DNA of 64,000 bases from Kitasatospora mediocidica KCTC 9733. Lineage in GTDB: Bacteria; Actinomycetota; Actinomycetes; Streptomycetales; Streptomycetaceae. The notes beneath the pieces were generated by a model that had not been told where the DNA came from, did no database searches, and saw nothing but the letters and a program-made list of their open reading frames with translations. Positions within the stretch are counted from its first letter, which is position 1; each line of letters starts with the position of its first letter. Position numbers and translations under genes: made by a program. The stretch is from assembly GCF_000744225.1 (NCBI RefSeq), contig NZ_JQLN01000004.1, forward strand, positions 1,240,001 through 1,304,000. The letters are read 5' to 3'. Shown here piece by piece: positions 1,665-6,022 of the stretch.

Positions 1665-1744
1665 CGGCCGGGCACCCCGGCTCTACGGGTGCCGTGCGGC
1701 TACCGTGGCAGGTGCAACCCAGACCGTTCGAAGGGAACCGCATC

Positions 1745-2233
<489 letters not shown>

Positions 2234-2244
2234 CGGCCATCGGT

Positions 2245-2337: not shown

Positions 2338-3432
2338 TCAGAGTGAGCCGATCTCGTGGTCCGGGTCGTCCAACCAGGCCCGGTGTTCGCCGGCCAGGGT
2401 CACGGTCAGGCCGAGCCGGGACAGGTCCGGGCGGTCGTGGCGCTGCCACCACTGGTAGGCGACTGTCACCTCGTCCCAGACGTTCCTGGGGCCGGACTGC
2501 GAGACGGCATGCCCGGCCTGCCAGTCGGCAAGACGGCAGTGGGCGTATGACCGCCCGTCCCAGATCTCGAAGCGGCCCGTGCCGAAGCGGTCGTAGGAGG
2601 CCCAGACGCTTTGCCTGAACAGGTCGGGCATCCGCAGGCCGATCGCGAACGCGGCGTCGGTGTTGTCAGCAACGCCGGTGGGGTCGATCTCCGAACGGCT
2701 GTACCGGACGTCCTCGATGTCGAACTCGCCGCTGTCGGGTCGCTGGTCGCGGACCCACATGAACGCCACGTCCGCCACGAAGGGACCACTCGCCGACTTG
2801 CCGTCCTCGGCGACCGTGAGCCGCGCCAACGCCCCGTTGCAGAAGGCCGTGCCGTACGGGGCCAGGATCACCCCGCCGGGCTCGGTCTGCTCGATCAGGG
2901 CTGCTGGCAGACGCTGAACAGCGGCCGTCAGCTGCACTCGCTGGAAGGGCGCCCTATCTGGGTAGCCGAGCATGCCGTCACCGGCCACCACCCGGGGCCG
3001 CAGGCCGAGCGCGTCAAGCCGGGCTCGGGCCTCAGTGGCGAGCTTGGGGTCCACCTCGATGCTGACGACGTTGTCCGGGCCGAGCCGGTGGGACAGCAGG
3101 GCCGCCGTCCATCCCGTCCCGGTGCCCACCTCCAGGACGCGCATGCCGTCGGCCACGTCCAGGTGGCGGAGCATCGTCGCGACCACCGTGGGCATAGAGC
3201 TGGACGAGGACGGGGTCTCGGTCCCCTCGTACAGCTGCGTGGCCAATGGCAGGTCCGAGGCGGCCAGTTCCGACCACCGAGCCGGGTTGGACTCGAAGTC
3301 GATCCAGTCGCCCCCGTGGTAGATCTGCGCCGGGGTGAAGCGGTCCCGCGGGAAGGCTCGGAACGTCGCCTCCCAGTCGGCCGACAGCGCCCCGGACTCC
3401 CGGAGCCTGTCGGTGAGTTCGTCCCAGGTCAT
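2338..3432 (-). CDS. PCMT-family O-methyltransferase with C-terminal extension (RiPP-type)
   Basis: A 364-residue SAM methyltransferase of the protein-L-isoaspartate O-methyltransferase family. The SAM-binding motif VLEVGTGTGWTAALL is at residues 99-113, preceded by a Ser-rich motif (residues 75-81, SSSSSMP) where housekeeping enzymes have TISQP. Housekeeping PCMTs are about 210-230 residues; here some 140 extra residues follow the catalytic domain. Such extensions are known from RiPP-associated PCMTs (OlvSA, ThfM, NmaM), which methylate a precursor Asp so that it closes to aspartimide. The ATG at 3432 is chosen because GGAGG overlaps the stop of the 49-residue peptide gene 7 bases upstream, implying translational coupling. 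The precursor role of that peptide is inferred. Confidence 0.85.
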   Translation of the reverse strand: MTWDELTDRLRESGALSADWEATFRAFPRDRFTPAQIYHGGDWIDFESNPARWSELAASDLPLATQLYEGTETPSSSSSMPTVVATMLRHLDVADGMRVLEVGTGTGWTAALLSHRLGPDNVVSIEVDPKLATEARARLDALGLRPRVVAGDGMLGYPDRAPFQRVQLTAAVQRLPAALIEQTEPGGVILAPYGTAFCNGALARLTVAEDGKSASGPFVADVAFMWVRDQRPDSGEFDIEDVRYSRSEIDPTGVADNTDAAFAIGLRMPDLFRQSVWASYDRFGTGRFEIWDGRSYAHCRLADWQAGHAVSQSGPRNVWDEVTVAYQWWQRHDRPDLSRLGLTVTLAGEHRAWLDDPDHEIGSL

Positions 3433-3439
3433 TGGTTCC

Positions 3440-3589
3440 CTACCTCCCGGGCTTGGGCAGGTTGGTGGGCGGGGCGTCCCGGTGTCCGTCGTGCGGGGTG
3501 GTGTCGGGCGACCCCGAGTGGCCGCCGCCCGAGCCGCCGCCCGCCTTGCCGGGCCCGTCGCTGCCGCCGCCTCCGCCGTGCTTTCCCAT
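3440..3589 (-). CDS. 49-residue Gly-rich peptide, candidate imiditide precursor
   Basis: A short gene starting at ATG 3589 with a near-perfect ribosome site AAGGAGG 8 bases upstream, ending TAG at 3440. The product has 17 glycines in 49 residues, a poly-Gly/Ser N-terminal half and a Pro-rich tail ending NLPKPGR. It has no Cys and no signal peptide. Two Asp-Gly steps (D11-G12 and D34-G35) are present; Asp-Gly is the sequence at which PCMT-type enzymes drive aspartimide formation in known RiPPs. The stop overlaps the ribosome site of the PCMT gene, so the two are almost certainly co-expressed. It could instead be a small structural or immunity protein; no homologue is recognised. Confidence 0.72.
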   Translation of the reverse strand: MGKHGGGGGSDGPGKAGGGSGGGHSGSPDTTPHDGHRDAPPTNLPKPGR

Positions 3590-3656
3590 CGAGGTGCCTC
3601 CTTGTTGCTGCCGGGCGCTGGAGCGCTCATCCGGGTGTCGTCTGGAGTCAAGCGCA

Positions 3657-3693
3657 CGAGAATCGCCGACGAGTGCGTGATTCTCGAATATTC
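3657..3693 (-). promoter_or_regulatory. Operator-like motif upstream of the peptide/PCMT operon
   Basis: Positions 3679-3693 read GATTCTCGAATATTC on the plus strand and contain the palindrome GAATATTC. Exactly the same 15 bases occur at 5382-5396 upstream of the DUF6879/XRE operon. Here an inverted half-site CGAGAATC (3657-3664) pairs with GATTCTCG (3679-3686) across 14 bases. The site lies 90 bases upstream of the peptide start and 32 bases upstream (transcription direction) of the downstream end of the XRE gene. It is a likely binding site for the neighbouring XRE regulator or a shared promoter element. Confidence 0.55.
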
Positions 3694-3724
3694 CAGAGCC
3701 GGCAGCTGAGGTTCGTGGGGATTC

Positions 3725-4567
3725 TCAGATAGCTCCGAGGGCCCTGCGGCACCGCGTGATGACCCGGTGGGCATCTGGGCCGTAGACGGCTGCGCTGGCT
3801 AGCGTCTCCCAAGCGCGCAGGTACAGCGCCACGTTGTCCGCCTGGTCCAGCCACAGCTCGGCGTGCCAATCCTCAACGATGACAAGCCGTTCGTCATAGA
3901 TCCAAAACCCGTTGGCAGGAGGCAACTTGAGCAAACCGTCGAACGGAACGATGCCCAGCGACACGGTATCCAGCCCGATCACGCCGCTGAGCCGGTCAAG
4001 CTGCGCAGCCATCACCGGCGGTGGGCAGACCAGAGCGCGCAGCGCGGCTTCCCACATGATGATGTGGTACCGCTTGCCCGGCTGATACAGGCTTTCCTGC
4101 CGCCGGACACGGGCCCGCACGGCATCCTCGACATCGCGCGGCGACTGGTGGAGATCGACGTACGCGCTGAACACATGCCGGGCGTAGTCGGCTGTTTGGA
4201 GCATGCCGACGATCATGGAGCCTTCCCAGGCACGCATGACGGTAGAACGCTCGTACTCGGCTGTCAGCGTGTCCTGCACTGGTCTGTGCCCAGCGGCAAG
4301 CTGCCGTCGCCATGAACGAGAGTGCGACTCGAACACCCTTAGCCTGGCAGCCAATTCAGGCGCTGTATGAGGCTGCCCAACGCCCTCCGCCCATGCCTCA
4401 AGGTCGTCATGGGTAGCCGTCTGCCTACCAGTCTCCAGTTTGCTGACCTTGGACTGCGTCCAGCCCAGATGGCCGGCCAGTTGCCGACCCGTGAGACCGC
4501 CCTCGGTGCGCAGCTCACGAAGCCGCAGACCGAGGGCGATTCGGGCCTGTTGGAAGTCGGTGCTCAC
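3725..4567 (-). CDS. XRE-family regulator with DUF5753 domain
   Basis: A 280-residue DNA-binding protein. The N-terminal helix-turn-helix is at about residues 10-65 (RLRELRTEGGLTGRQLAGHL followed by GWTQSKVSKLETGR), and the DUF5753 domain fills the rest. The start is a GTG at 4567 that overlaps the TGA of the upstream DUF6879 gene by four bases, so the two are coupled. In streptomycetes such regulators usually pair with small DUF397 or DUF6879 partners, several of which act as antagonists in development or antibiotic control. The repeated 15-bp motif around it is a candidate target. Confidence 0.88.
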   Translation of the reverse strand: MSTDFQQARIALGLRLRELRTEGGLTGRQLAGHLGWTQSKVSKLETGRQTATHDDLEAWAEGVGQPHTAPELAARLRVFESHSRSWRRQLAAGHRPVQDTLTAEYERSTVMRAWEGSMIVGMLQTADYARHVFSAYVDLHQSPRDVEDAVRARVRRQESLYQPGKRYHIIMWEAALRALVCPPPVMAAQLDRLSGVIGLDTVSLGIVPFDGLLKLPPANGFWIYDERLVIVEDWHAELWLDQADNVALYLRAWETLASAAVYGPDAHRVITRCRRALGAI

Positions 4568-5316
4568 ATGCGGGACGGTACCTCAGCGCTGAACGCCTGG
4601 TGCGGCGTGGCGAAGTGCCAAGCAGCGTCCCGTACCTGGCAGGCACGAGCCACCTGCACCGGGTCGGTGATCAGTTCCACACCGGTCAGTTCGTCGTCAG
4701 GGTCAAAGTGCAGTAGCGCGATCACGCGCGAGTCGAACAGCCAGGCGTCCTCGTTCGGAACGCTCAGACGGTCGGCTTCAGCGCGCCAGAGGTACCGAAT
4801 ATCCTCGCCGACAGTACTGTTGCGCTCGGCGTTGTCGAGCAGATACCGCTGCCCCAGGGTGGGCGGGTTGTCCATGATCCTCACCCGCTCGAACCGCTTG
4901 CCCATGGCCACTTGTTCGCGGCGCGAACGGCACCAGGGGTCTTCCAAGTCCCATCCGGCTGCCTGCCCAGCGGCGAACCGGCGGTAGGTCTCCGTCCGCT
5001 CGTCGGAGCGGTACCGGTGACGGGTCTCCAGCCGGAAGGCCGTGTGCTGGAAGCTCTCAAACATGCCGTCGAACTCGTCGAAGCTGATCAGGACCGGCTC
5101 CCGGTCCACGTCGCGCGGCGAGAAGTCGGCGAGCAGCACGCGCGGCACGATCACGAACCCTTCGCCGGGCTTGATGTCGCGGAGCCGGGCCACTTCGTCA
5201 GGGTCGGTCACCGCCTCGCCCTGCACCAGCACTTCCCCGGTCTCTACATCTTCGTAGAGCGTTGGGCATCCGTTGTTCCCTGAGTTGCTTCCGATATACC
5301 GCAGTCGTCGGGTCAC
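4564..5316 (-). CDS. DUF6879-family protein with extra N-terminal domain
   Basis: A 250-residue cytosolic protein. Residues about 1-70 form a small domain (LRYIGSNSGNNGCPTLYED, then VETGEVLVQGEAVTDP) often found as a separate small protein in actinomycetes. Residues about 75-240 match DUF6879 (FDEFDGMFESFQHTAFRLETR, WDLEDPWCRSRRE, YLWRAEADRLSVPNEDAWLFDS). The biochemical role is unknown; genes of this family sit beside XRE-DUF5753 regulators. The GTG start at 5316 has GGGGAG upstream. The gene is first in an operon with the XRE gene. A shared 15-bp motif lies 66 bases upstream. Confidence 0.75.
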   Translation of the reverse strand: MTRRLRYIGSNSGNNGCPTLYEDVETGEVLVQGEAVTDPDEVARLRDIKPGEGFVIVPRVLLADFSPRDVDREPVLISFDEFDGMFESFQHTAFRLETRHRYRSDERTETYRRFAAGQAAGWDLEDPWCRSRREQVAMGKRFERVRIMDNPPTLGQRYLLDNAERNSTVGEDIRYLWRAEADRLSVPNEDAWLFDSRVIALLHFDPDDELTGVELITDPVQVARACQVRDAAWHFATPHQAFSAEVPSRM

Positions 5317-5381: not shown

Positions 5382-5396
5382 GATTCTCGAATATTC
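5382..5396 (-). promoter_or_regulatory. Second copy of the 15-bp operator-like motif
   Basis: GATTCTCGAATATTC on the plus strand, identical to 3679-3693. It lies 66 bases upstream of the DUF6879 start. The octamer GACTCCAG also occurs between motif and gene in both promoters (minus-strand reading), supporting a shared promoter architecture. Confidence 0.5.
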
Positions 5397-5517
5397 TCCT
5401 GAGACAGCCGAAGCCCTGTTCCCGACGCGCCCGGGGCACGGCGGCGGGTGCGGTGACGGGGTGCGGGGCGAGTTACCGTGGCGGGCGGAAGCCGGACCCT
5501 TGGAATGGAAGCGCATC

Positions 5518-6006
<489 letters not shown>

Positions 6007-6022
6007 CACCCCCCCGACGGCC

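Follow-up and report, generated by a model that had tools for sequence, protein, structure and literature searches.

A candidate imiditide locus of Kitasatospora mediocidica behind a DUF6879-XRE gene pair and a paired 16-base site

Is a short glycine-rich peptide the substrate of the methyltransferase encoded directly after it, and what controls the expression of the two genes? This question is raised by a locus of Kitasatospora mediocidica KCTC 9733, which we have studied in a window of 64,000 nucleotides; by window we mean the whole stretch of DNA analysed. The sequence-only reading had proposed a candidate imiditide locus. This proposal is supported: the peptide is coupled to an extended PIMT homolog, has conserved Asp residues and is under purifying selection. 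With a probability of about 0.78 we consider the locus to be a regulated module of the imiditide or type I pamtide kind, in which the PAMT (a PIMT-like Asp O-methyltransferase) would act on the adjacent peptide and a DUF6879-XRE pair would regulate. The operon has four minus-strand genes in a row: DUF6879, XRE-DUF5753, precursor and the PCMT-family gene which codes for the PAMT. The features are as follows.

4564..5316, minus strand: DUF6879 protein, 250 aa; its 3' end overlaps the XRE start
3725..4567, minus strand: XRE-DUF5753 (WhiJ/Scr1-type) transcriptional regulator, 280 aa
3440..3589, minus strand: precursor peptide gene, 49 aa, MGKHGGGGGSDGPGKAGGGSGGGHSGSPDTTPHDGHRDAPPTNLPKPGR; predicted site Asp34, with Asp11 second
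2338..3432, minus strand: PAMT, PIMT-like Asp O-methyltransferase, 364 aa, with a C-terminal extension
3679..3694, minus strand: putative operator copy 1, GGAATATTCGAGAATC, between XRE and precursor
3657-3664 and 3679-3686: a further inverted repeat CGAGAATC/GATTCTCG, at putative operator copy 1
5382..5397, minus strand: putative operator copy 2, AGAATATTCGAGAATC, upstream of DUF6879-XRE
1687..2234, plus strand: glutathione peroxidase gene region, copy 1, on one flank of the module
5459..6007, plus strand: glutathione peroxidase gene region, copy 2, 97% identical to copy 1, on the opposite flank

The peptide and the PCMT had been described accurately. The 49-residue frame has an ATG start and a strong ribosome site, with the Shine-Dalgarno word AAGGAGG, and its TAG stop overlaps GGGAGG, the ribosome site ahead of the PCMT ATG. 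It was also correct that no other tailoring enzyme is adjacent; the operon is larger than had been described. Three things had gone unnoticed: two genes upstream (DUF6879 and XRE-DUF5753), the paired 16-base site, and nearly identical glutathione peroxidase (GPx) genes on both sides. The operon holds no class-defining enzyme of another RiPP class, and none of its four genes codes for a transporter or a peptidase. Among 12 orthologous loci, inspected by eye with a crude gene finder, no gene is common to the whole set; close pairs (L056/L017, L010/L011) have downstream genes in common.

The subfamily set which we have used for the peptide has 17 intact PCMT loci with 57-100% identity, the window included. 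A conserved peptide does lie beside these homologous PCMTs: a clean precursor is present in 13 of the 17, and in one more (L009) the body of the peptide remains without the usual MGKH start. The other three have no intact precursor: in L014 the tail alone remains, and in L013 and L062 no precursor was found. The 13 clean peptides align as M[GA]KHGGGxGxDG...HSGxPDTAxxDGxR...PP..LPKP. Their pooled pN/pS is 0.314 in the peptide frame; the two other frames give 2.00 and 2.20. Purifying selection across the 13 orthologs shows that the peptide gene is real and not a product of chance. The peptide of the window contains 35% G, 14% P and 8% D, has a pI of 8.3 and matches no Pfam or NCBIfam family. It has no Cys, and with it no tetracysteine (zinc ribbon) motif.

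Both Asp-Gly pairs which had been pointed out, D11-G12 and D34-G35, are present in the window, and both positions are kept in the subfamily. D11, D29 and D34 are found in all 13 orthologs, D38 in 10 of them. The C-terminal pair also recurs in more distant precursors. An automatic scan, whose criteria were more than 50% G/P/D/K/H/S and one Asp or more, without a demand for Asp-Gly, found a precursor at 48 of 58 PAMT loci; all 48 contain Asp-Gly, and 45 obey a broad DG[QHKSRAN] rule in their C-terminal half. The precursor of L024, a Nocardiopsis locus, has WDGQKDAPPPPP where the window has HDGHRDAPPTNLP, and four other Nocardiopsis precursors have STxDGHKPDRP. Since the C-terminal Asp-Gly motif recurs in other precursor subfamilies, including those of Nocardiopsis, D34 is the likeliest candidate for the modified residue; D11 is a possible second one.

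Several PAMT subfamilies also have a Pro-rich micro-ORF of about 20-37 codons which precedes the Gly-rich precursor. It is found upstream of the precursor in L056, L017, L063, L071, L012, L010, L011, L059, L060 and L087, and in L070 it is fused to it in frame. A trace of it, MSAPAPG, is visible in the window at about 3630-3610 on the minus strand. A word similar to a ribosome site accompanies it, MTTPTPGPNRPPGPGPMPPE in L056 and L017 and MSTPTPGPNRPPGPGPMPP... in L063. Most of these upstream frames lack Asp-Gly.

The enzyme matches PF01135 in residues 76-211 (E 9e-31). This leaves about 130-150 of its 364 residues beyond the catalytic domain, in agreement with the extension noticed before. TISQP is a motif of canonical PIMTs. 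At that place the PAMT has PSSSSSMP, a Ser-rich motif as had been stated, and the Ser-rich stretch is a feature of the whole family, with S76, S77 and S79 invariant in 35 sequences. A structure model (pLDDT 92.8) has PIMTs as its best PDB matches; with 2yxe the VIA-align Z is 27.1, with an rmsd of 1.8 over 205 residues. The PIMT structures cover the model up to about residue 232, and on this model the catalytic part is a PIMT fold. Thermotoga maritima PIMT (1dl5) aligns with the whole model over 308 residues with a Z of 26.5 but an rmsd of 6.8. When the C-terminal domain was modelled alone, no significant match to it was found in the PDB, and T. maritima PIMT was absent among the 50 matches listed. 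The order of strands and helices in the extension resembles what the accessible text of PMC10787088 describes for RiPP PIMTs. Their WxxxGxP motif is recognizable: W329 and P335 are invariant in the 35 sequences, and the window reads W-QRH-D-R-P, with the middle G replaced by D.

One homolog departs from this pattern. In L023 (4001-5164) the PAMT homology stops at residue 137, after which the frame stays open into what appears by eye to be the sequence of another SAM methyltransferase. The N-terminus of its precursor differs as well, so that it is either a decayed copy or a fusion.

Should the enzyme be considered an ordinary isoAsp repair enzyme, with the peptide as a fortuitous neighbour? The PF01135 match and the PIMT fold agree with that. 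On the other side, its scores are below the curated cut-offs of the repair enzymes (97.2 bits for TIGR00080, the canonical PIMT, with a cut-off of 159.05; 113.8 bits for NF001453, with a cut-off of 188), and the peptide is co-conserved and under purifying selection. We have rejected the repair reading on these two grounds and consider it highly improbable. Canonical PIMTs (E. coli Pcm, 3lbf; T. maritima PIMT, 1dl5) share the catalytic fold of the PAMT, which differs from them by its C-terminal extension (absent in E. coli), its Ser-rich motif and the coupled peptide.

A profile of a different kind, TIGR04188 (ATP-grasp peptide maturase system methyltransferase), matches the PAMT from end to end. 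It could indicate a graspetide cluster of group 13 with its ATP-grasp partner elsewhere, for which the gene at 9-638 (complete in L151) is the candidate. The match has 274.9 bits where the cut-off is 380. As for the ATP-grasp-like protein, it is similar to the D-cycloserine synthetase DcsG (160.7 bits, below the cut-off of 360), and its gene lies on the strand opposite to the operon, beyond GPx copy 1 and after a haem-oxygenase-like gene. A graspetide locus has been rejected because this gene is similar to DcsG and lies on the opposite strand in the company of other genes; it has hardly any probability left. The DcsG-like gene has a 2-hydroxyacid dehydrogenase as well as the haem-oxygenase-like gene near it, and together they are possibly a separate small pathway.

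In group 13 graspetides (graspimiditides, with ThfM, AmdM and SsfM) the methyltransferase is homologous to the PAMT, and their clusters may also hold DUF5753 and DUF397 genes, as far as described in the accessible part of PMC13097080; DUF5753 genes near graspetide clusters also appear in that of PMC8939145. The operon of the window differs by having no graspetide synthetase, and its precursor is presumably linear.

The closest systems are imiditides and type I pamtides, which in the available parts of PMC13001092 and PMC10787088 are defined by two-gene pairs, with 1414 type I members. As in the characterised pairs NmaA-NmaM and SpaA-SpaM, we find two adjacent genes. The likeness extends to a Gly/Pro/Asp-rich precursor of about 45 aa without cysteine, a PIMT homolog with a C-terminal extension (over 100 aa in the published definition), a conserved Asp, charged termini and the lack of any other tailoring enzyme. 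The peptide of the window resembles type I pamtides in composition as given in the portion of PMC10787088 at hand, but its 35% Gly exceeds the published mean of 17.3%. Unlike NmaA-NmaM and SpaA-SpaM, to which it is likened by description, the pair of the window is found behind a DUF6879-XRE pair with a paired 16-base site. Matches of the subfamily at E 1e-110 occur in 16 of 394 sampled genomes of the family, all in the genus of the window. It is well supported that the pair is a new subfamily within known imiditides/type I pamtides; its chemistry as such is ordinary.

Methylation and aspartimide formation have been published for NmaA and SpaA, according to the available text of PMC13001092 and PMC10787088. 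By analogy with such characterised relatives, the adjacent PAMT would have the 49-residue peptide as its substrate. With its pI of 4.8 the enzyme is acidic and would probably hold the conserved basic, Pro-rich tail of the peptide (LPKPxK/R), and the pI values of enzyme and peptide agree with the charge-based recognition published for NmaM. One Asp would then be methylated, with D34 in the C-terminal Asp-Gly motif as the most likely one, and the methyl ester would close to an aspartimide, which may open to isoAsp or Asp.

We now come to the regulator. It contains PF19054 (DUF5753, E 1.4e-36) and HTH_31 (E 9.3e-14). In the XRE-DUF5753/DUF397 pairs WhiJ-BldB and Scr1-Scr2, as presented in the accessible parts of PMC10294661 and PMC10364602, an XRE with DUF5753 also stands beside a small gene; unlike them, the XRE of the window has DUF6879 and the peptide-PAMT pair as partners, and the gene directly downstream is the precursor, not DUF397. 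The genome has 21 DUF5753 genes and three PAMT genes of the pamtide type (on contigs C4, C6 and C1). A DUF5753 gene adjoins two of these three, on C4 and C6; the contig of the C1 PAMT has none. The main texts of the two pamtide papers, PMC10787088 and PMC13001092, contain neither "regulator" nor "helix-turn-helix".

With a custom XRE profile (E<1e-20), a same-strand DUF5753-type XRE ends no more than 1.5 kb upstream at 21 of 56 other PAMT loci, which cannot be taken as independent, since loci of one genus are related (7 of the 58 PAMT loci come from Nocardiopsis). On the opposite strand there are 6 of 56, and downstream on the same strand 2 of 56. This count leaves out the window, one further locus per side without flank and the loci L108-L127, which had been chosen by their XRE. 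As a background we have at least 1457 DUF5753 genes in about 612 Mb (70 genomes of the genus), a chance of at least roughly 0.2% per locus; this value was obtained with PF19054, in Kitasatospora-type genomes only and with scoring limited to 41 candidates per genome. An XRE as universal partner of PAMTs is rejected by the same figure of 21 in 56. The XRE lineage of the window is present at one of the 17 intact subfamily loci, the window itself.

The site which accompanies this lineage is almost unique. With up to two mismatches, GGAATATTCGAGAATC occurs twice in the 8.68-Mb genome, before the peptide and before DUF6879-XRE. In 70 genomes the same search gives 44 sites, against one for the reversed control pattern. 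The 18 sites with no more than one mismatch are all found at DUF6879-XRE loci, PAMT loci or relics of them (L146 and L147, the latter recognised by eye); of the 26 with two mismatches 6 were placed at modules, the remaining 20 lying outside the loci inspected. In L148 the site precedes a peptide-PAMT pair with no adjacent XRE ortholog. DUF6879-XRE lies between two sites, about 1.7 kb from each other, in nine genomes (G000, G003, G004, G020, G025, G030, G055, G061 and G064), and the XRE orthologs of L074, L113, L114 and L122 have no site even when two mismatches are allowed. By eye, several orthologous loci also have a possible -10 element, a TAnCGT box about 28 bases after the site; the window departs from it.

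A local test for words shared by the two intergenic regions was applied to 22 loci. At the 16 loci whose XRE belongs to another lineage the shuffles were never exceeded, so a common site for those lineages is unsupported by this weak test. Among the six loci with the lineage of the window L091 alone exceeded them, and the window itself reached 16, equal to the shuffle maximum of 16. The test is weak because it missed the site pairs of L023 and L067, known from the scans. It is the genome-wide scans that speak for the site. The XRE may bind the 16-base site before its own operon and before the peptide-PAMT unit, and expression would probably be set by the upstream DUF6879-XRE pair. Both the DNA binding and the sign of the regulation are predictions from sequence, and the paired site suggests that the XRE is autoregulated.

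The same regulator lineage is found with different cargo: peptide-PAMT pairs of other subfamilies, and genes other than PAMT. We have inspected all 15 loci with an XRE at least 73% identical to that of the window. In ten of them a PAMT is found downstream on the same strand (truncated in L023), and in eight of these ten the PAMT is just 39-43% identical to that of the window. In L111 the last 35 residues of a PAMT are joined to the end of the XRE. The other four (L108, L109, L110 and L112) have no PAMT within the 7-10 kb examined and have other genes behind the same 16-base site. Elsewhere, the PAMT subfamily of the window lies behind distant XREs (L057 and L059, with 29-31% identity) or has none nearby.

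A similar case involves another regulator. L013, L014 and L064 have 1.4 kb of upstream DNA in common, 85-89% identical, with PAMTs of two subfamilies. A divergent gene in this DNA, with over 430 codons, is HTH-like as judged by eye. The likeness stops about 30-100 bases before the PAMT, where remains of the precursor lie; the precursors of these loci are truncated or missing. The pattern points to an exchange of regulator-promoter and cargo with a junction in or close to the 5' part of the precursor. DUF6879-XRE would then be a regulator cassette with exchangeable cargo, in which the XRE controls both units.

The genes of the loci without PAMT deserve a description. In L109, L110 and L112 a 161-aa protein replaces the PAMT pair behind the same site (its frame is broken in L112); it has a tail like GSGNCAQCHRGCHSS and no Pfam match, and by eye its gene is followed by a kinase-like gene. 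They are possibly another peptide system under the same regulator. L108 has a small protein at 4744-4968, also behind the same regulator and site and with no Pfam match; similar words occur upstream of the PAMT pair of L057.

The modified peptide might not be an exported product: it could be an effector of the XRE, in the place of DUF397, whose methylated, aspartimide or isoAsp form tunes the XRE which drives its own synthesis. Such a role is unlikely in our opinion. It agrees with the enrichment of DUF5753-type XREs upstream of PAMT loci, the lack of a transporter or peptidase in the operon, the position of the precursor directly after the XRE where DUF397 might be expected, and the autoregulation which the paired site suggests; WhiJ9, in the accessible text of PMC10294661, activates a neighbour from direct repeats. 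However, the same XRE lineage also precedes genes other than PAMT (the four loci just described), and this XRE is missing next to the peptide in 16 of the 17 intact subfamily loci.

The surroundings of the module bring in a further alternative. The two GPx gene regions between which it lies are direct repeats; the other genomes listed have one long GPx match each. In G055 a related module separates HIT from a single GPx. G052 has the same gene order (LysR, kinase, HIT, GPx) without the module, the 1.3 kb between HIT and GPx being outside the DNA examined. A module at the GPx-HIT junction of the window and G055 and not of G052, one regulator lineage with different cargo (together with the similar case of another regulator) and the decayed copies L023, L111, L146 and L147 would all fit a selfish or toxin-antitoxin-like mobile module, whose peptide and PAMT act on the host cell. 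XRE-DUF397 pairs have been proposed as TA systems in the part of PMC10364602 available. Against this, the peptide has a composition like that of verified PAMT substrates, and PADLOC gave only partial or generic matches (methyltransferase, HTH), on which a defence system was also discarded. We consider a selfish module very unlikely, and a regulated imiditide or type I pamtide module is the reading we prefer.

No biological role of imiditides is named in the available text of the review PMC13001092. A bolder reading would make DUF6879-XRE(DUF5753) an exchangeable regulatory chassis with a paired operator of its own, which captures small-peptide cargo by recombining between the chassis promoter and the first codons of the cargo, with the Asp-modified peptide as the DUF5753 ligand in an autoregulatory loop. 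We regard it as quite unlikely; if it were true, this signal loop would give imiditides a biological function.

What specialists would find useful in this locus is the regulatory cassette with its near-unique site. The literature already counts over 1000 imiditide pairs. A practical handle on them is a regulator whose lineage is linked to a 16-base site found almost nowhere else: a condition which turns the regulator on would point to a condition where the peptide matters. Our results also suggest that mining by PAMT alone may miss a system of exchange between regulator and cargo which carries other small proteins.
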